In this document: positions 2,632 to 36,170 of the stretch, piece by piece | Layout of the letters: each line of letters starts with the position of its first letter | How positions within the stretch are numbered: position 1 is the stretch's first letter | Assembly (NCBI RefSeq): GCF_021168475.1 | Contig: NZ_JAJOZT010000001.1 | Location: forward strand, 1-64,000 | Direction of reading: 5' to 3' | Origin: Pseudoclavibacter sp. 13-3 | GTDB taxonomy: Bacteria > Actinomycetota > Actinomycetes > Actinomycetales > Microbacteriaceae | Length of the DNA stretch: 64,000 nucleotides | The notes under the pieces: model-generated | Seen by the model: only the letters and a program-made list of their open reading frames with translations | Told to the model about the DNA's origin: nothing | Database searches by the model: none | Position numbers and translations under genes: made by a program

Positions 2632-4178
2632 ATCGAGCGGAGAGTCCACCAAGCACGCTGGAACCTCATCTTCGGGGACGCGCCTGACGCCGACCCGTGC
2701 ACTTGGAGCGACACTACGTCCCCTTCCTTCAGGTCTAAGAGCACTCCTGACGCGGTGTTCCCTTGTACATCGGTTGTGTCGCCCGCGGGCGACGACCCGT
2801 AGATCCAGTCTTCACCAGCCACGGTCGCGCCGTTGACAAGGGGCTGCAGCTCGAACCACCCTGTCGTCATGCCGGCCATGCCCACTGACCAGGAGAGTTC
2901 GTAGAGGCCGTCTGCCGGGACTCGAAGGCCACGCGTGGCTGTGTTGGAGGTGCCGCGCGTTGTGACGGCCTGCATGCCGCCGCGGGCCTTGGACGCATTC
3001 CAGTTCGTCAGTTCCACCCATGCGCTCTGCAATCCACACGGCACATCCGCGGTCACGACCCACCATGCCCCCGCGCACCGTTGTGGTCCACGGTTGAAGG
3101 CCGCCGCATTCCCGTTGCCGATGAGGGACACAACCGAGCAGTGCCGCATCGGGAGATCAATCGGTTTCAGCGGGGTGTGCGCCGTCAAGTCGGCGGAGAA
3201 GTCCGCGTAGAACATGCCGCCGTCAGTCTCGTATGCGCGTGTCGAGTCCGAGTATTGCAGGAAGCCACCACAGTCAACGAACAGTCTGATCCCACCGTTC
3301 GTGAGAGGTGCGTGCGTAGGCCCCTCACCACGCGCCCACGTCGAATCGACCGCTCCCATGTCTGACCAGGTGCCGAGCACCGAGGTCGCTTTGGCCTGCT
3401 TCACAGTGAAGTCGGGATCGCTGTAGAACGCCCGGTAATCGTTGGTGGCGAGCTTGACGATATGAGCGTCGATGCCCGTCGGGAATGACGGCAGTGCAGT
3501 CCGGGTGCTCCACGAGAGAGACGCGAGATTCGTGGACGCAGTTGACACATGGTAGGCCTTGAAATCCGACGTACCAGAGGTGGTCGTGGAGGCCGAGAAG
3601 ACCACACGCAGGATGCTGCCGTCGACGAGAACGTCGGGCGCCCAAACGCGCTTCACCCCACTGATCGTCGAGCAGTCGATGGCTGACCGCTGCGTCCAAT
3701 CACGGCCATTCGTGGAGGTTGCGACGCCGATCGTGGTGATCGTCCCCCACGCCCCGCCTCCCGCTGTCGTGGGACGGGTGTAGACCATCACCCATCCGCC
3801 AGCCCACTGCGCGATTGACGGATCTCGCACAGTCGAGTCGGACGGCGCGAAGCGGATGCCAGTCGGCGCAAAGTGAGCGCCATCCGTGGAGAACGCAAAG
3901 TTCGCCGTCTCATCCTTGCTGTAGAAATGCGACGCCAGCAGAGGGCCGGTATCGCCCTGCATCTGCGCAAGGACCTGCTGAGCAGACGTCACCGATTGCG
4001 CGGCGGCTGTCGCAGAAGATGCTGCAGCAGTCTTCGACGTGGCAGCGCCAGTTGCAGAGTTCGCAGCAGCAGCAGCCGATGCCGCCGCGGCAACCTTCGC
4101 TGCGAGCGCTTCGGGGGTGACGTCGCCTCTAGGGCCGGGGATTGCGATTGTGCGTTTGTCGCGGATCTGGTCGGTCAT
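2628..4178 (-). CDS. Tail fibre / receptor-binding protein, GH43-like propeller
   Basis: A 516-residue protein at the distal end of the late operon. Residues ~20-75 are an Ala-rich heptad stretch expected to trimerise the fibre. Residues ~85-380 look like a five-bladed propeller of the GH43/GH32 type (FAPSDSTVRDPSIAQWAGG, VWAPDVLVDG, paired RDP/APD motifs). Residues ~400-515 resemble a C1q/TNF-like jelly roll. Role inferred: binding or trimming host-surface glycans at adsorption. It lies 3 bp downstream of the preceding tail gene and converges with a glycosyltransferase. Whether the hydrolase site is active cannot be judged. Confidence 0.75.
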   Translation of the reverse strand: MTDQIRDKRTIAIPGPRGDVTPEALAAKVAAAASAAAAANSATGAATSKTAAASSATAAAQSVTSAQQVLAQMQGDTGPLLASHFYSKDETANFAFSTDGAHFAPTGIRFAPSDSTVRDPSIAQWAGGWVMVYTRPTTAGGGAWGTITTIGVATSTNGRDWTQRSAIDCSTISGVKRVWAPDVLVDGSILRVVFSASTTTSGTSDFKAYHVSTASTNLASLSWSTRTALPSFPTGIDAHIVKLATNDYRAFYSDPDFTVKQAKATSVLGTWSDMGAVDSTWARGEGPTHAPLTNGGIRLFVDCGGFLQYSDSTRAYETDGGMFYADFSADLTAHTPLKPIDLPMRHCSVVSLIGNGNAAAFNRGPQRCAGAWWVVTADVPCGLQSAWVELTNWNASKARGGMQAVTTRGTSNTATRGLRVPADGLYELSWSVGMAGMTTGWFELQPLVNGATVAGEDWIYGSSPAGDTTDVQGNTASGVLLDLKEGDVVSLQVHGSASGASPKMRFQRAWWTLRSI

Positions 4179-4181
4179 GGG

Positions 4182-4532
4182 TCAGTCCTCGATTCTGATC
4201 GTGCCTTCGCCGAGACGCTCGACGTGCCCGTCTGGGCTAGTGGCAGTGATGGTCCATGTGCCTCGTGGGCGGCCTGCCCACACGTCAGAGCTGGTCGTGG
4301 ATGCGGCGAGGTCGGCGATGGCGAGACCGTCGGAGGTGAGCTCGACGGGCTGCTCGAGCCACACGTCGCCATGCGGGGAGCTGACGCGGAGTGTGCCTGA
4401 CCAGGTCAGCAGGTCCACCGGCTGGAACCCGCTGCCGTCGTCCTGCTCCCAGAGCACGCCCCATCGAGCAGACACACCCCGCCGAATCAACACGTCCTGA
4501 CGTCCGACGGCCTGCGTGAGCACGCCCGGCAT
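4182..4532 (-). CDS. Beta-rich minor tail / fibre-associated protein
   Basis: A 116-residue, beta-strand-rich protein without signal peptide or membrane segment. Its start codon touches the stop of the holin gene and it ends 3 bp before the fibre gene, so it is translated as part of the late operon. The layout (LTQAVGRQDVLIRRGVSARW at the start, a central LTWSGTLRV strand, WTITATSPDG near the end) resembles small beta-sandwich proteins that sit next to fibres in Microbacterium-type siphophages. Role in the tail tip inferred from position. Confidence 0.6.
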   Translation of the reverse strand: MPGVLTQAVGRQDVLIRRGVSARWGVLWEQDDGSGFQPVDLLTWSGTLRVSSPHGDVWLEQPVELTSDGLAIADLAASTTSSDVWAGRPRGTWTITATSPDGHVERLGEGTIRIED

Positions 4533-4951
4533 CAGGCATCCTCCGCATGCTTGCCAGCAGTCGATTCGAGCTCGACGATGCGCTGCTCCAGCTCGGCGAG
4601 CCGTGCAGCCTCACTGTCATCGGGCACATCAACGTCGGTGGCCTGCGGTGCGATGGTCTTCGCCCCGACCTGCTCGGCCGCCGTGAAAGCGCCGGTCTTC
4701 TGCCACGCGACGAAGGCAGCCTGAGATGATGCGAAGACCAAGGCGACCGCACCCAGCCACGTGCCGGCGGATGACCAGTCGAGGCCGTCGAGCTGCCCGG
4801 AGGTCATAGCCGTGACCGTGCCGAGGACGACAGAGAAGACCACGGCGAGGATGACTTTCGCCCGAGATGACCATTCCGGGCGCTGCAGGAGCGCCTGCAC
4901 GATCGGGGCGAGCGACCCCAGGACAGGTGCGATGAGAGCGATCTGAGACAT
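4532..4951 (-). CDS. Holin
   Basis: A 139-residue protein with three hydrophobic segments at about residues 3-21, 33-50 and 65-85, followed by a charged C-terminal tail with a short coiled coil (RLAELEQRIVELES). This is the usual architecture of actinophage holins, which permeabilise the membrane so that endolysin reaches the cell wall. The Met at 4951 is chosen over the longer frame because upstream residues are basic and non-conserved and an AAGGAA-like ribosome site precedes it. It lies just downstream of the endolysin and a 31-residue membrane peptide. Confidence 0.75.
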   Translation of the reverse strand: MSQIALIAPVLGSLAPIVQALLQRPEWSSRAKVILAVVFSVVLGTVTAMTSGQLDGLDWSSAGTWLGAVALVFASSQAAFVAWQKTGAFTAAEQVGAKTIAPQATDVDVPDDSEAARLAELEQRIVELESTAGKHAEDA

Positions 4952-4965
4952 GAGATGTGTTCCTT

Positions 4966-5061
4966 TCAGAAGATGATGGAGAAGATGACGAGGGCCGCTG
5001 GGATCCCGCCGACAAGGGCGACGAGGACCAGCAGCCACAAGTAGGAGGCGGGGCCGCGCAT
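4966..5061 (-). CDS. 31-residue single-span membrane peptide in lysis cassette
   Basis: The ORF begins at an ATG overlapping the endolysin stop (TGATG) and encodes 31 residues that are almost entirely one hydrophobic helix (LWLLVLVALVGGIPAALVI). The start-stop overlap and position between endolysin and holin argue for a real translated peptide, either a second holin-like/antiholin factor or a small structural membrane protein. Too short for family assignment. Confidence 0.6.
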   Translation of the reverse strand: MRGPASYLWLLVLVALVGGIPAALVIFSIIF

Positions 5062-6410
5062 CACCGCACCCGGATTGTGCGGCCCGCGTAGATACGGTTC
5101 ACGTCGGTGATTCCGTTCCAGCGCTGCAGCTGCTGCACCCGAGTGCCGAACCGTGATGCGATGCCCGAGAGAGTGTCGCCAGCGCGGATCGTGTAGTAGC
5201 TCCCGGCAGCCGACGTGCCGGCGGCACCGGATCGCGTGGTCTTCAGTACCTGGCCTGGGTAGATCACGTACGGCGCACGGATGCCGTTCAGTGAGGCGAG
5301 TGTCTGCCAGGAGACTCCGACACGCTGGCCGATCTTCGACAGTGAATCGCCACGCACCACAGTGACCGTCGACCCGGTGCTCGTGCTGCTCGACGATGAT
5401 GCCTGCCCGTCCACACGCAACACCTGACCCGGGTAGATCCGATTCGGGTTCGAGATGCCGTTCGCCGCCGCGAGCACCGCGACAGTGGTGCCGTAGCGTG
5501 CAGCGATAGCGGAGAGGGTGTCGCCGGCCTTGACGACGTACGCTCCCCCGTTCGACGATCCCTGCCCGGTCGGGCCGGTGCCCTGCGACGGCTGCGCCGG
5601 CGGGCTGTAGGGCTCGACCTCGTCGCGCGTGTCGTTGTCCTCGTTCGCCTCCGGCGGCGCCGTGATCACCGTGCCCGGCGCGATCGGCTGATCCTGCAGC
5701 GTCGACGGGTTCAGGCCGGCCAGCGTGCCAGCGGAGACGCCGAGGATTGCCGCGAGCGCCGCGAGCGAGGCCACCCAGCCTTTCGTCTTGAACAGCTTCG
5801 AGGCGTTGGCGTATGCGGCCCAGGCGTTGCGATCGCCGTAGAAGACGTTCATGTCGAGGTTGCCCGCGTAGCCAGCGATCCGGCCGGTCGAGGTGTACTG
5901 CCACATGACGACGGTCCAGCCGTGGCCTGGCTTGTACGGACAGGCAGGAGTGGCCAGGTTGTTCGGTCGGTTGTTCGGGTAGCCGGCGATCCACAGACCA
6001 TAGTCTTTCGACACCGCTTCCCAGGCGTAGGTTGATGCGGGTGAGGCTGACATGTAGATCAGGGGGCGCACACCTGTGGTCGCGTAGACGCGGTCCAGGA
6101 AGGCCCGCGCCCATGCCACGTCGGCGACGCCGTCTTCCCAATCGAGCACGAGAAGCGCACGGCCGATGTAGCCCCGGATGTTCTTCACGAAGAAGTCGGC
6201 CTCGGCAGTAGCCGTGTTACGTCGGTTCCGGGCGAAGTGGTAGAGGCCGAGCAGTTTGCCCGATCCCAGTGCCTGCGAGACATGTGAGTTGCAGTACGGG
6301 TTCACATACCCGACTCCCTCCGTCGCTTTCACGATCACGAAGTCGAGCTGTGCTCCAGCCACGTTGAGTGTCGCCTGATACGACGAAGTATCGATGCCTG
6401 TTAGAGCCAT
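5061..6410 (-). CDS. Endolysin: GH25 lysozyme with three LysM repeats
   Basis: A 449-residue cell-wall hydrolase. Residues ~5-195 are a GH25 muramidase (GIDTSSYQ at the start, VKATEG, and LDWED carrying the catalytic acid), which cleaves the MurNAc-GlcNAc bond of peptidoglycan. A hydrophobic, Ala-rich linker follows, then a Pro-rich acidic hinge, then three LysM modules each with a GDTLS or GDSLS core and an IYPGQVL/IYAGRTI end. The start at 6410 fits the GH25 N terminus and a SD-like AGGAG. No signal peptide; holin-dependent export is implied by the adjacent holin. Confidence 0.93.
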
Positions 6411-28484: not shown

Positions 28485-28530
28485 AGGGCTGGCGGGAGTC
28501 GAACCCGCGGCCAGCGATCACAATCAGACG
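28485..28530 (-). other. tRNA-like 3' half (T-arm plus acceptor strand)
   Basis: The minus strand reads GCGGGTTCGACTCCCGC, a perfect T-arm with the invariant TTCGA, followed by CAGCCCT as acceptor 3' strand. No D-arm or anticodon arm fits a 73-90 nt tRNA; the only complementary GGGGCTG lies too far away (102 nt in total). It is probably a relic or a captured tRNA 3' end, as found in attP sites, located just upstream of the ParB-like gene. Confidence 0.45.
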
Positions 28531-31707: not shown

Positions 31708-31801
31708 ATGAACACACTAACGACTCGTTCGCGTACACGCAAGCGTAATGTGTGTTGATATGGCTACACATTGTGTTGATATTGCATCTATAGTGATCTA
31801 C
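31708..31801. promoter_or_regulatory. Divergent immunity control region with operator repeats
   Basis: For the minus gene: -35 at 31737-31742 and -10 at 31714-31719 (17-bp spacer), with palindrome AACGA-C-TCGTT at 31719-31729. For the plus gene: -10 TATAGT at 31789-31794, seven bases before the ATG. Two direct copies of TGTGTTGATAT (31751-31761, 31772-31782) are 21 bp apart, two helical turns, and AATGTGT/ACACATT arms enclose the first copy (31747-31753, 31766-31772). These are likely repressor sites. Confidence 0.7.
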
Positions 31802-32185
31802 ATGGACACAGCAGCCGAGCGATTCAATCGGGCAGTAGGTGCGCAGATTCGCGCCGAGATCGCGGCCCACGGTGACACGGTGAAAGGTGTCAGCGAGAAG
31901 ACAGGCATCTCCCGCAGCAGTCTGGTCAAGTATCTAGACGGCGAGCGACACATCCCAGTGAGCAGTGTCTATCGCATCAGTTCACTGTGGGCTTTGCCAC
32001 CCGAGGTCATAGTTGAACGAGCCTCAGAACGCTACTTCCTGGATGAGTCTCAGCGACGCAGTCCGGCCACTGTGACGGACTTGTCGTCCCGTCGCCATGA
32101 TGCTCCGCCTTTCGAGGTCCATGAGGAACGTGGTGCCGCGTACGACCAGGCTGACGGTGAAGTCAGCGATCCCGAAGAACCGTAG
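31802..32185 (+). CDS. XRE-family phage repressor
   Basis: A 127-residue protein with a helix-turn-helix near residues 24-55 (TVKGVSEKTGISRSSLVKYL, HIPVSSVYRISSLW) and a charged C-terminal tail. The ATG at 31802 lies seven bases after a TATAGT -10 box and has no SD, so a leaderless transcript is likely, as for lambda cI from PRM. It is followed by an ImmA/IrrE metallopeptidase gene, the arrangement of ICEBs1-type ImmR-ImmA immunity modules. Probable lysogeny repressor. Confidence 0.82.
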   Translation: MDTAAERFNRAVGAQIRAEIAAHGDTVKGVSEKTGISRSSLVKYLDGERHIPVSSVYRISSLWALPPEVIVERASERYFLDESQRRSPATVTDLSSRRHDAPPFEVHEERGAAYDQADGEVSDPEEP

Positions 32186-32198
32186 AAGAGAGCATCAC

Positions 32199-32570
32199 GT
32201 GGGGGCATACGATCCTTGGGAGCACGCCGAGCAACTCGGCATCCCCGTCTACCGGTATCCGCTGAAGACCGCACCAGGCATGTGGGTGCCAGACCAGCGC
32301 GCCATCCTCATGCGCCCAGACTTGCGAATGTTCGAAGAGATCTGCGTACTGGCACACGAACTCGTCCACGCCGAATACAACGACCCCGCCGGGCACGACG
32401 GCAAAGCCGAACGACGAGCACACCGCATCGCAGCACACCGACTCATCGACCAACGCGAACTGCGAGCGCTCGGCCGTCTCTACGGGCACGTCGACGACCG
32501 TCTCTGTCACGAGCTCGGCGTCACACGCGAGATTCTCACCGCAGCACTTCAGGAACAAGTGGCATCATGA
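32199..32570 (+). CDS. ImmA/IrrE-family metallopeptidase
   Basis: A 123-residue gluzincin-type peptidase with HELVHAEYND (residues ~60-69) providing the two zinc-binding His and catalytic Glu, and AERRAHRIAAHRL containing the following helix. GTG start at 32199 is supported by AGAAGAGAG eight bases upstream. ImmA cleaves its partner repressor to induce the prophage; the adjacent XRE gene is the likely substrate. Confidence 0.85.
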   Translation: MGAYDPWEHAEQLGIPVYRYPLKTAPGMWVPDQRAILMRPDLRMFEEICVLAHELVHAEYNDPAGHDGKAERRAHRIAAHRLIDQRELRALGRLYGHVDDRLCHELGVTREILTAALQEQVAS

Positions 32571-32667: not shown

Positions 32668-33240
32668 TTGATACCGGCTCTGAACAGCGATGGGCATTTG
32701 CCACCAGGTAGATACCGAACGACCTTGGACGAGATCAAGCAGGAGTTCGTCGATCACCGCCGCTTCGCCGCTTCCACCACTCGAGCCGACGTATGGGACG
32801 GTTTCTCTAACTACCTGGCAGCATGGGCCGCAGCAGAGCACAACTTAGGTGTCGACTTCCTGAAGGCGATCTGGATCGCCGGAAGTTTCACGTCGTCCGA
32901 GATTGACCCCAACGATATCGATATCAGCCCGTTCTATGACAGCTCGCTCATCGAGCAAGTCAAGGGGAAACCAGGTGTGGGACAGCTCAAGAACCTATTC
33001 GAGCAACGATCGCGTGTTGTCGAAGAGTTCAAAGTAGAGCCGTTCGCAGTTCCGTGGCGCCCGGTGATTTCAACACTCTTGCCCTCTAGACTTACTGAAC
33101 CAGAGCGTTCATACTTGGCCAACCGAGGCGGACTCGACGATTGGTGGCAACGCACACGGCCAGGAGGCAAGGACGAGCCACCGACGCTCGACGGCATCGC
33201 GGCGCGACGCGGGTATTTGGAGGTGATGGTGCGTGATTGA
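32668..33240 (+). CDS. DUF6932-like nucleotidyltransferase-fold protein
   Basis: A 190-residue protein. The conserved part begins LIPALNSDGHLPPGRYRTTL and includes IAGSFTSSEIDPNDIDIS (residues ~72-89), matching the minimal nucleotidyltransferase signature (GS, ~9 residues, DxD). I place the start at TTG 32668, seven bases after GGGGAG, where related proteins start; the longer frame from 32584 adds a spurious lipobox-like leader. The next gene overlaps it by 8 bp. The cassette lies between immunity genes and integrase, where prophages carry lysogen-expressed cargo. Possible antitoxin or defence enzyme; unproven. Confidence 0.7.
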   Translation: MIPALNSDGHLPPGRYRTTLDEIKQEFVDHRRFAASTTRADVWDGFSNYLAAWAAAEHNLGVDFLKAIWIAGSFTSSEIDPNDIDISPFYDSSLIEQVKGKPGVGQLKNLFEQRSRVVEEFKVEPFAVPWRPVISTLLPSRLTEPERSYLANRGGLDDWWQRTRPGGKDEPPTLDGIAARRGYLEVMVRD

Positions 33241-34189
33241 TCCCTACTACGAGAGACTCCGCCATGACTCCCGAGCATGCTCTGAAGCGAGCAAGTGGCT
33301 AGATAGTCTCCCCGTCACGGCGCTTCCGCTCGATGAGGTTCTCTTCGAGGCGCAGCTGCAGGCCGCTGAGCGTTTCGATGCCTCCATCTCTCGGCATGCA
33401 CACGAGTACATCGTCCGACTCTCAGGCCCTGACGTTGAAGCCGGAGTTCTACCAGACTCCATCAACGATGAAGTGGTACCCCGGATTACACGAGAGATCG
33501 CCGCATCCGCTGAAATCGACAATGCGAACGTCAAGTTCGGTCTCGCGGGAATTGGGCAAGGCAGCATCGTCCTGTACTTCAAGCCACTGGACGATGATGC
33601 CGCGTACTCATCGACCTCAGAAGACCAATTCGAACAGCGTATTTCAATCATCGACAACGCCATCGAACGAATCAATACGTTGCATGGGCTCATCGAGAAC
33701 GAAGCCAGCGCCAACGAGATCCAGGCGCGCTTCCACTCGACTCGAGAACGTCAACTGCTTCACGCGGCGGGCAAACTCGTCGAAGCGTTGGACTCCCACA
33801 GCCTTGACTTCACCTCACGATGGCGGGGTCCAGGAGGCAGACGCACGTTAGGCATGATCTCCGAACGAGGCAGAGCCTACGCTCAGACGCTTTTCCACGA
33901 GAGCGAGCAATCTGAAGAACGCCCATTCAGCGGGAAGATCCAGGCACTCGACTTGGAAGGGTCCGTGACCATCGCTTCAGGGAAGAGGAACTCTCGTCGA
34001 GTCGCGAGTATCGACCCCAAGCTGATCCCCGGGCTTAGGCTGGGCGACCCCATTCACGTAATCCTCCGAATCGTCAAGAACAATGACGCGGTGCGATCAC
34101 ATACCTCCGGCGTGCAGCCAAAATACTCGGTCGTCAGGCTCCTCGAACGCGACACTCCCGCTGACTCAATACACCCCGCCTCGAGCTAA
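33233..34189 (+). CDS. Partner protein of the nucleotidyltransferase cassette
   Basis: A 318-residue soluble protein from a GTG with GGAGGTGAT upstream, overlapping the previous stop. Residues ~90-115 (NVKFGLAGIGQGSIVLYFKP) are beta-rich, ~130-190 helical with RERQLLH (Arg-x5-His, a spacing seen in HEPN nucleases but not diagnostic), and ~225-310 an OB/SH3-like beta domain (FSGKIQALDLEGSVTI, DPIHVILRIVKNND). I do not recognise the family. Coupling to the NTase-like gene means the two probably act together. Confidence 0.7.
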   Translation: MIDPYYERLRHDSRACSEASKWLDSLPVTALPLDEVLFEAQLQAAERFDASISRHAHEYIVRLSGPDVEAGVLPDSINDEVVPRITREIAASAEIDNANVKFGLAGIGQGSIVLYFKPLDDDAAYSSTSEDQFEQRISIIDNAIERINTLHGLIENEASANEIQARFHSTRERQLLHAAGKLVEALDSHSLDFTSRWRGPGGRRTLGMISERGRAYAQTLFHESEQSEERPFSGKIQALDLEGSVTIASGKRNSRRVASIDPKLIPGLRLGDPIHVILRIVKNNDAVRSHTSGVQPKYSVVRLLERDTPADSIHPASS

Positions 34190-34509: not shown

Positions 34510-35607
34510 GTGCACTCAGTCGGCACATTCGCTCTGAAATCCGAGGCACGCCGAGCGGCAGTCAAAGCCGAGTCGAAAGTACTGCGGCCAGACTGGACAG
34601 ACCCCTCGATCGCCAAGATGACCTGGGGCGACTGGTGCGAACGATGGTGGCCGACACGGCGAATAGAAGCCAGCACAGCAGCCAACGAAGAAGCCATGGT
34701 GCAGAAGCACATCAGCCCACAGTGGATCGACGTGCAGCTCGGGCAGATCCGACGCGGCCACGTGCAAGGCTGGGTGAACAAGCTCGTCAGCGACGGCACG
34801 CTCAAAGCGTCGAGCGTGAGACGAGTGCTCAACGTCTTCGTCTCATCACTGACCCCATCCGTCGCCGAGGGCATCCTCGAAGCAAACCCAGCAGCCGGCG
34901 TCTCCATCACCCTCGAAGACCCAGAGCACGTCTTCCTCACCCGTGAACAGTTCAAGGCACTCATCGAGAGCGTCGGCACCGACAAAGTGCCACGCAGCAA
35001 GCGCAGGAAGCCATTCGAGCCCGACTATCACGCCCAGGCGGTGATCAGCTTCCTCGTCGCCACAGGCCTGCGCTGGGGTGAACTAGCGGGCCTGCACTGG
35101 GAACAGCTCACCGAGACCAGCGTCACCGTCAAGAACGTCGTCTCCGCCGGAGAAATCAAGCCCTACCCGAAAGGCAAGAAACAACGAGTCGTGCCCCTGC
35201 CTGGATGGGCACGCCGACTCATAACCTGGGAAGATGACGGAGCGCAGCCACTTCCCTACCGCACCGGCATGCGACGCCCGAAGACCGGCCTCGTGTTCAC
35301 CGGGCCCACCGGCGCCGCGCTCGACGACAGAAACTTCACCAGGCAGAAGCTCAACCCCGCACTCAAACGAGCCGAGCTCGCTCACCTCGGCTTCACCTTG
35401 CATGACCTGCGCCACACATACGCATCCTGGCTCATCCAAGACGGCGTGAGGCTCGAACAGATCTCCGCTCTCCTGGGCCACGCCAGCTGGAAAACCACCC
35501 AGATCTACGCGCACCTCGTGCCCGGGCAAGACGAGAACCTCAGCAAAGCGCTCAGAGACCCCTTCGCGCCGGAACTAACCGTGCTCGAGGGCGGCGCCGC
35601 AGGATGA
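34510..35607 (+). CDS. Tyrosine recombinase (phage integrase), N terminus apparently frameshifted
   Basis: Integrates and excises the prophage. The catalytic domain shows ATGLRWGELAGL (Arg I), LHDLRHTYASWL (His-x-x-Arg) and LLGHASWKTTQIYAH with the nucleophile Tyr; an arm/core-binding domain precedes it (MTWGDWCERWWPTRRIEAST). The frame contains typical N-terminal residues RRPSGRYQGAYRTPDGKVHS upstream of GTG 34510, but no start codon lies in that frame; an ATG with AAAGGAGG (34445) is one base out. A one-base loss after ATG-GC would explain this. If real, the protein from 34510 lacks ~22 residues. Confidence 0.85.
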   Translation: MHSVGTFALKSEARRAAVKAESKVLRPDWTDPSIAKMTWGDWCERWWPTRRIEASTAANEEAMVQKHISPQWIDVQLGQIRRGHVQGWVNKLVSDGTLKASSVRRVLNVFVSSLTPSVAEGILEANPAAGVSITLEDPEHVFLTREQFKALIESVGTDKVPRSKRRKPFEPDYHAQAVISFLVATGLRWGELAGLHWEQLTETSVTVKNVVSAGEIKPYPKGKKQRVVPLPGWARRLITWEDDGAQPLPYRTGMRRPKTGLVFTGPTGAALDDRNFTRQKLNPALKRAELAHLGFTLHDLRHTYASWLIQDGVRLEQISALLGHASWKTTQIYAHLVPGQDENLSKALRDPFAPELTVLEGGAAG

Positions 35608-35649
35608 CCCAAAACACCCGAGAACGAGTCACGGCGAGTGACGCGTGAC

Positions 35650-35676
35650 TCAAGTCTGCTATCCGTTTGCTATCCG
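35650..35676 (+). repeat. Putative integrase arm-type repeats
   Basis: TGCTATCCG occurs twice in direct orientation (35657-35665 and 35668-35676), 11 bp apart, one helical turn. The first belongs to TCAAGTCTGCTATC (35650-35663), which is an exact 14-bp inverted copy of the tRNA-Val T-arm/acceptor region at 35745-35758. Its place between integrase and tRNA suggests arm or core binding sites. Confidence 0.5.
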
Positions 35677-35691
35677 CGACTTAAACGAAGA

Positions 35692-35730
35692 AGGCCCGGA
35701 ATCCCGCGTCTTCCGCGTGATTCCGGGCCT
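35692..35730. terminator. Bidirectional hairpin between integrase and tRNA-Val
   Basis: AGGCCCGGAATC and GATTCCGGGCCT form a perfect 12-bp stem, extended by four further pairs. It can end both the rightward integrase mRNA and the leftward tRNA operon transcript, seven bases from the tRNA CCA end. Confidence 0.85.
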
Positions 35731-35736
35731 ATCCCG

Positions 35737-35758
35737 TGGTGGGCGATAGCAGACTTGA
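35737..35758. other. Probable prophage attachment site at tRNA-Val 3' end
   Basis: The integrase ends 130 bp away and the prophage abuts the tRNA 3' end, so recombination presumably took place within the T-arm/acceptor region and restored an intact tRNA. The core length cannot be fixed because the other attachment site is outside the window. Confidence 0.6.
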
Positions 35759-35813
35759 ACTGCTGACCTCTTCCGTGTCAGGGAAGCGCGCTACCAGACT
35801 GCGCCAATCGCCC
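35737..35813 (-). tRNA. tRNA-Val (GAC)
   Basis: On the minus strand GGGCGAT and ATCGCCC form the acceptor stem, the anticodon loop CTGACAC gives GAC, the T-loop is TTCAAGT, and CCA is encoded (35737-35739). Last of three tRNAs in a leftward operon and likely phage integration target. Confidence 0.96.
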
Positions 35814-35869
35814 GTACTCGAACCGTCGAGTGCGTCTGTCGACTTTCGTCGACTCCGGCCGAAGCCGGT

Positions 35870-35943
35870 TGGAGGTGGAGACGGGAGTCGAACCCGCGTA
35901 TACGGCTTTGCAGGCCGCTGCCTCGCCACTCGGCCACTCCACC
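35870..35943 (-). tRNA. tRNA-Cys (GCA)
   Basis: Acceptor GGTGGAG/CTCCACC, anticodon loop CTGCAAA giving GCA, T-loop TTCGACT, discriminator U73 as expected for Cys, and encoded CCA. Middle gene of the Gly-Cys-Val cluster. Confidence 0.96.
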
Positions 35944-36042
35944 ATGCCAGACTTCGCCGATTCTGAGTGCATCATTGCCGGTGAAGCAGCCCCTGTGAAG
36001 CGGGGCCTGTGGCAGGTCTTTCACAAGTGAAAGAACCCTCCG

Positions 36043-36115
36043 AGCGGATGACGAGATTCGAACTCGCGACCCCCACCATGGCAAGGTGGTGCTCTACCAA
36101 CTGAGCCACATCCGC
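36043..36115 (-). tRNA. tRNA-Gly (GCC)
   Basis: Acceptor GCGGATG/CATCCGC, anticodon loop TTGCCAT giving GCC, T-loop TTCGAAT; CCA is not encoded. First gene of the tRNA operon. Confidence 0.96.
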
Positions 36116-36170
36116 ATGTTGATCAGCTTGACGCTGTTCAACGTTGCCGCCGTGTTCCGGCGACTTGAAT

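Follow-up and report, generated by a model that had tools for sequence, protein, structure and literature searches.

The window, a 64,000-nucleotide stretch of the Pseudoclavibacter sp. 13-3 genome, carries two overlapping genes, here called A and B, whose family placement is firm: judged by their sequences, they are a divergent relative of PDC-M63, a candidate family of the PADLOC collection. We tentatively read the pair, with confidence falling a little short of even, as a toxin-antitoxin (TA)-like two-gene module of lysogens, in which A is the likely effector and B the likely antitoxin or sensor, and which would block phage or arrest the cell. An anonymous pair of prophage genes thereby becomes a testable module in the classic exclusion slot of lambdoid phages.

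To the left of the pair, at 2.6-21 kb of the window, lie genes for the terminase, the portal, the major capsid protein, the tape measure and the tail; its surroundings are thus a siphovirus-type prophage (Table 1). A preliminary description of this DNA had set the pair after the repressor/ImmA genes and before the integrase, as the Pfam matches of the neighbours bear out, and had given A a 318-residue partner with an 8-bp overlap, which the open reading frames confirm. A starts at a TTG codon; several relatives begin at the same 'MIPxL', and GGGGAG lies upstream of that codon in the window. As for an attachment site, comparison of 35600-36150 with the leftmost 5.2 kb of the window showed no direct repeat of at least 11 bp. 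A 17-bp stretch of the tRNA-Cys gene is repeated exactly just upstream of the gene for a phage ParB-like protein (window 35882-35898 and 28493-28509); the repeat seems longer than chance would give and makes no obvious attachment site.

Table 1. Features of the A-B locus in the window, followed by the loci in which a B-like gene precedes a PIN gene (positions within each locus)
Feature	Position	Strand	Basis
XRE-type HTH protein, likely prophage repressor	31748..32185	+	HTH_3 E=5e-4, below Pfam cut-off
M78/ImmA peptidase, start codon chosen by us	32199..32570	+	PF06114 E=1.9e-8
Gene A, DUF6932 nucleotidyltransferase-like, 190 aa, TTG start	32668..33240	+	ORF, Pfam, model
Gly72-Ser73 of the GS motif in A	32881..32886	+	sequence, alignment
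D83-I84-D85, putative catalytic pair of A	32914..32922	+	sequence, alignment
E124, third acid of A, on model strand 123-125	33037..33039	+	alignment, model
Conserved C-terminal RGYLEV tail of A, model strand 182-187	33208..33225	+	alignment, model
Overlap of A end and B start, 8 bp	33233..33240	+	ORFs
Gene B, 318 aa, GTG start, without Pfam family	33233..34189	+	ORF, model
Predicted C-terminal OB fold of B, residues 224-309	33902..34159	+	structural alignment of model
Tyrosine integrase	34510..35607	+	PF00589 E=1.4e-22
tRNA-Val, adjoins integrase	35737-35813
B-like and PIN genes, L098	1555-2828
B-like and PIN genes, L103	1489-2783
B-like and PIN genes, L104	1459-2711
B-like and PIN genes, L058	275-1652

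Gene A had been called DUF6932-like from its letters alone, and its Pfam match stands well above the cut-off (PF22014; E=5.4e-21, 75.9 bits against 27). The PADLOC model PDC-M63A (PDLC04744) also matches it (E=4.9e-12). The minimal nucleotidyltransferase signature is as first described: G72-S73, nine residues, then D83-I84-D85. Alignment and model add E124 as the third acid, so that the triad of the window's own A is intact. In the AlphaFold2 model (mean pLDDT 89.4), one strand precedes G72-S73, D83 and D85 open the next, and E124 lies on a third. In the PDB, Foldseek matched nothing to this model at an E of 0.001 or below; its top entry (E=0.018) was a small nucleotidyltransferase (2rff), to which a second structural alignment gave Z 6.5 and an rmsd of 4.2 A over 100 residues, the tool's safe level being Z 8. 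AadA reached Z 5.3, and MNT antitoxins came lower in the list. This second tool (VIA-align) ranks Foldseek's own candidates only, and a family absent from its list may still be related. A search for sequence relatives of known structure gave nothing convincing: the best for A was a short stretch of an M protein (E 0.062), and none was found for B. We conclude that A has a predicted nucleotidyltransferase core, without a close relative of known structure.

The partner had been left without a family, and B indeed has no Pfam family at E up to 5. PHROG gave weak matches only (E 0.011 and 0.037). Against PADLOC, the window's B had no PDC-M63B match at E up to 5, in a search where HMMER's filters drop most weak matches. 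When the partner proteins of seven relatives were scanned, PDC-M63B matched those of L009, L011 and L012 (6.9e-5, 2.2e-7 and 1.2e-7) and did not match those of L014, L013, L006 and L008. We conclude from these profile searches that the window's B is related to PDC-M63B only through B's relatives. As single sequences, A found 1 GenBank phage, 14 PLSDB plasmids and 0 IMG/VR contigs; B found nothing in these three collections and, among 99 relatives, only its own genome, which points to a patchy distribution.

The AlphaFold2 model of B (mean pLDDT 80.7) opens with helices, continues with an alpha/beta part and a helical middle, and closes with an OB fold at residues 224-309. The end that had been described as OB/SH3-like is, by alignment of the model, an OB fold: it superimposes on the N-terminal region of RuvA with Z 9.1 and an rmsd of 1.7 over 63 residues, and SSB and PriB match it with Z of about 8-9. 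OB folds usually bind nucleic acid or protein. For the whole fold of B, Foldseek matched nothing in the PDB at an E of 0.001 or below; the alignments of the second tool cover the OB part only. The best viral fold match is a DUF6575 phage protein (E=2.5e-11, TM 0.48, rmsd 7.1, 293 alignment columns), a likeness of the predicted model only, as Pfam gave no match of B to DUF6575 (PF20215) at E up to 5. A PF20215 search of 178 genomes of the phylum produced no signal anywhere, and the controls were equally silent.

Conservation gives few hints of an active site in B. Across 24 aligned proteins, M1, G65, G110, S111 and G234 are invariant, R62 is kept in 88% and W197 in 83%, a pattern in which no catalytic site stands out. 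The Arg-x5-His element that had been noticed in the helical middle is present (R171-H177), but it does not hold up as a conserved HEPN-like feature, since H177 occurs in 1 of the 24 proteins, the window's own. B was therefore rejected as a HEPN protein.

Do the two genes travel together elsewhere? They do, in genomes, plasmids and phages. Related A-B pairs were found in Actinobacteria, on mycobacterial plasmids, in a streptococcal phage satellite and in lambdoid phages of E. coli and Erwinia. Within the order (248 genomes) there are nine DUF6932 loci; a B relative follows A in eight, the window included, and the ninth ends with its contig. Within the class (394 genomes), 20 loci lie above the cut-off, among them the window and L004, and L076, below the Pfam cut-off, is not counted. 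A B relative is present in 16 of these, the three weakest scoring 18.5, 23.9 and 24.7 bits with the B profile, and the other four have an Xre-type partner in place of B (at most 0.5 bits). Overlaps between A and B are mostly 4-17 bp, lengths that depend on choosing the start codon nearest A's stop. A search of genome contigs found B in 21/21 loci, and in one viral contig besides, a count biased by a search motif that came from the window's branch. It includes L035, whose A, a frame without the usual tail, is left out of the A alignment and the active-site table. Near the L035 pair lies an MmeI-type restriction-modification gene (2767-5484), with a tyrosine-recombinase match on the opposite side. 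Among plasmids, 4 of the 14 records with A were examined; three have B, and the remaining one, cyanobacterial, has a 175-aa partner with an HTH match below the Pfam cut-off. Streptococcus phage MissE1 carries an intact-looking DUF6932 gene without B (L019, 4986-5626); within the lysogeny module, a 55-aa ORF and ImmA come after it.

Counted by genome, a Pfam match to A occurs in 9, a B-profile match in 7 and both in 6 of the 248 (P=2e-9); the corresponding figures for the class are 19, 16 and 10 of 394 (P=3e-11), relatedness being ignored in both tests. The order has one B match without A (L058), and it is of the B-like kind described below. Six genomes of the class have a B match without an A match: in L091, A survives as remnants and B is frameshifted; L096 has a cut B next to a frame that resembles a transposase; and L098-L101 carry the other, B-like kind. 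By these counts, A-B is a conserved pair, beyond what chance would give.

The B proteins also make up one family, to judge from a chain of links. The window's B connects to L007 (E=4e-40) and L007 to L009 (6e-9 to 9e-8); weaker links run from the window to L012 (0.007) and from L012 to Javan304 (about 9e-5). With a B profile built without the lambdoid rows, the B proteins of the three lambdoid phages reached 48-57 bits, and that of Javan304 reached 28. For 45 pairs, distances in the A and B trees were correlated at 0.68, a value reached by 0 of 2000 permutations, with relatedness not removed; the near-identical L004, L007 and L009 had been dropped beforehand, and loci with Xre-type partners are not in the trees.

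The active site of A varies across the same 45 paired proteins. D-x-D is found in 28, of which 24 have D and 4 have E as the third residue of the triad, and N-x-D in 15, with Ser (14) or Thr (1) there. Position 73 is Ser in 35 and Gly in 7, and R, Q and E occur once each. The 15 N-x-D proteins, from Streptomyces, Arthrobacter, Intrasporangium, Ruania, Microtetraspora and Corynebacterium, form one clade of the A tree (FastTree support 0.875), which adjoins the window and L020; all 17 group together with support 0.996. Their partners follow: 14 of the 15 cluster in the B tree (0.926), with L068 outside, and the group of 17 holds (0.981). The N-x-D state therefore probably reflects a single loss. 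The mycobacterial-type loci L011 and L071, in which both acids of D-x-D and the GS serine are gone while the third Asp and partner B are kept, make, by their motif, a second and separate loss. As the N-x-D clade lacks two of the three acids and keeps B, the pair can persist without the normal triad. Taken together, the clade and L011/L071 indicate that some pairs do without catalysis, an odd trait if the toxin is an enzyme.

Both genes are also found with other partners. A second set of B-like proteins was recovered by the B profile and by a profile of that set. Alignments of the two sets match in hhalign at 97.6% (E=3.4e-12 over 216 columns), a figure that is not fully independent because the B-like set had been picked by profile matches. 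Directly after the B-like gene comes a PIN gene (PF01850, above the cut-off) in 4 of 7 loci (L058, L098, L103 and L104), with overlaps of 4 or 11 bp; the L104 frame is short, at 106 aa. L100 and L101 continue into broken-looking PIN frames (by eye), and L099 has none. The B-like profile gave 5 matches; L102 is the same place as L099, and in L105 and L106 the profile matched part of a long frame. Beside the B-like/PIN pairs of L098 and L103 lie type I restriction-like genes, identified by eye. A, for its part, is followed by an Xre-type partner in L059, L060, L061 and L062, and Pfam confirmed the HTH in L059 and L061, the two that were scanned. The L061 partner has a long C-terminal extension in which we saw an HExxH-type segment by eye, without a Pfam peptidase match.

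Where does the pair sit? In all three lambdoid phages examined (mEpX1, PhiR30_1 and Erwinia phage 59), it is directly downstream of cI, and in both E. coli chromosomes examined, from 115 matches, it is directly downstream of a repressor-type gene. Searches with B of mEpX1, PhiR30_1 or Javan304 yielded 17 viral contigs, every one of them with A. Immediately upstream of the pair, 16 have a repressor-type gene, recognised by eye in L083; the remaining contig, L051, begins at A. The mEpX1 allele of B recurs in nine contigs at 99-100% identity, and the repressors ahead of it belong to six groups (50% identity cut); the pair hence moves independently of immunity type. In Javan304 it is flanked by an HTH gene and, with one gene in between, by the integrase. 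Accessory loci such as rexAB are commonly located between the repressor and n, according to PMC7067206; identity of the ST64B genes downstream of CI, from that paper, with the A-B pair was not established. Home-made profiles found a recombinase within about 6 kb in 5 of the 21 genome-contig loci, in one of them weakly, which argues that the module is not confined to prophages. The position in a lysogeny module that had been described is supported; the label 'prophage cargo' is too narrow. Searched in 5426 complete E. coli genomes, two alleles had 18 and 97 carriers, at most about 2%, the overlap between the two sets not being subtracted.

Perhaps the pair serves lysogeny itself? The OB fold might let B bind DNA or RNA and, together with A, tune the repressor, induction or superinfection immunity of the carrying phage, defence being absent or incidental. 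Such a role would suit the place of the pair next to repressors of unrelated phages, the absence of defence in the published account of an E. coli relative (PMC12409345, as far as its section on that locus goes) and the catalytic degeneracy of A in one clade. Against it, a near-identical pair that occurs behind six repressor groups does not belong to any single immunity system, 16 of the 21 genome-contig loci have no recombinase nearby by the home-made profiles, and the PIN-paired loci L098 and L103 have restriction-like neighbours. We consider control of lysogeny unlikely, if by no means far-fetched.

The TA-like reading draws on the exchange of partners. Partner swapping is usual in TA biology (PMC10440598, PMC2701414), and a conserved two-gene operon with partner swapping, which type II TA systems are expected to show, is what we observe. 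Since the B-like gene comes before PIN and A before an Xre-type gene, B takes the antitoxin's place and A the toxin's; it is from this swapping that we infer A to be the toxin and B the antitoxin. Gene order is A-B in the window and, conversely, B-PIN in the PIN loci. With A in front, the putative toxin gene would come first, as it does in HigBA. A narrow search of open-licence PubMed Central found no OB-fold antitoxin beside PIN.

Could the polarity be the other way round? According to PDB entry titles, the nucleotidyltransferase is the antitoxin in MNT-HEPN, and the polarity of A-B could therefore be reversed, with A a neutraliser that modifies or masks a toxic or effector B. That A is a minimal nucleotidyltransferase with MNT antitoxins and AadA among its structure matches agrees with this, and a masking role would suit the loss of catalysis in one clade; yet B shows little that looks catalytic and no HEPN motif, and its relatives occupy the usual antitoxin position ahead of PIN genes. 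Reversed polarity accordingly seems to us distinctly unlikely. Highly improbable is inactivation of an antibiotic or small molecule by an AadA/ANT-like A with B as accessory: the better structure matches of A do include AadA and ANT enzymes (Z about 4-5), but these are weak and cover the common core only, and the conserved partner, the repressor slot and the triad-less clade are left unexplained.

We therefore return to the TA-like module. A defence or TA role had been proposed at the outset as an inference, and it remains one: the PADLOC candidate family and the swapping with PIN and Xre-type partners favour it, and the published deletion without a detected defence effect, in the portion of PMC12409345 that deals with it, does not. 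Further points in favour of the TA-like reading are the adjacency of the two genes, their correlated trees, the slot shared with rex and the DUF6575 fold match of B. Also counted against it are the triad-less clade, A without B in MissE1, the B-PIN gene order, the 5/21 recombinases, the weak fold matches of A and the DUF6575 rmsd of 7.1. If it is right, the module might work as follows. Lying beside the lysogenic repressor and carried by temperate phages and satellites, A and B could be made in the quiet lysogen, where we presume they are expressed. B would keep A silent, sense infection-made nucleic acid through its OB fold, or both. A, once released, may transfer a nucleotide to tRNA or protein, and growth would stop. 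The module would most likely block the incoming phage or arrest the infected cell.

A wider proposal, which we regard as possible but doubtful, is that B represents a new class of antitoxin or sensor of about 300 aa, made up of an alpha/beta core, a helical middle and an OB fold. It would be paired with unrelated toxins, a PIN nuclease and a DUF6932 nucleotidyltransferase, would have spread across phyla into the repressor slot of temperate phages and satellites, would accompany a dead nucleotidyltransferase in one clade, and would have infection sensing by the OB fold as a common trigger. Were B such a promiscuous antitoxin or sensor, this would help explain how the pair persists with a triad-less nucleotidyltransferase and would offer a first mechanism for PDC-M63. 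The common B family already links this candidate defence family to PIN-paired loci. New here are the correlated trees of A and B, the sister clade that lacks two acids and is still paired, the occurrence of the B family with PIN and of the A family with Xre-type genes, and the OB-fold end and DUF6575 fold match of B.

How does the pair compare with known systems? PDC-M63 is the nearest: A matches PDC-M63A, the adjacent two-gene layout is alike and some B relatives match PDC-M63B, whereas the window's B does not. Deletion of PDC-M63AB from E. coli NILS69 revealed no defence against 10 phages, as the relevant part of PMC12409345 has it. Apart from that paper, our search of open-licence PubMed Central for DUF6932, PDC-M63 and the like turned up none, and no proven function for the candidate. 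With lambda rexAB the pair shares the slot, which is directly downstream of cI in the lambdoid relatives, whereas in the window an ImmA gene intervenes. B is dissimilar to lambda RexA (hhalign probability 0.1%) and was rejected as its homologue. RexB is a membrane protein, whereas A has a predicted nucleotidyltransferase-like fold. MNT-HEPN is alike in coupling a minimal nucleotidyltransferase to a second gene; B differs in having no conserved HEPN motif and in ending in a predicted OB fold. DUF6575 is among the domains listed for the E. coli anti-phage systems that PMC9519451 tested; the text of that paper, in the part on these systems, leaves the DUF6575 system unnamed. The window's B has no PADLOC match. 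One of the systems in the same account, PD-T4-10, consists, as A-B does, of two overlapping genes; these have no predicted function, were shown to be a TA system and protect against T-even phages (PMC9519451).
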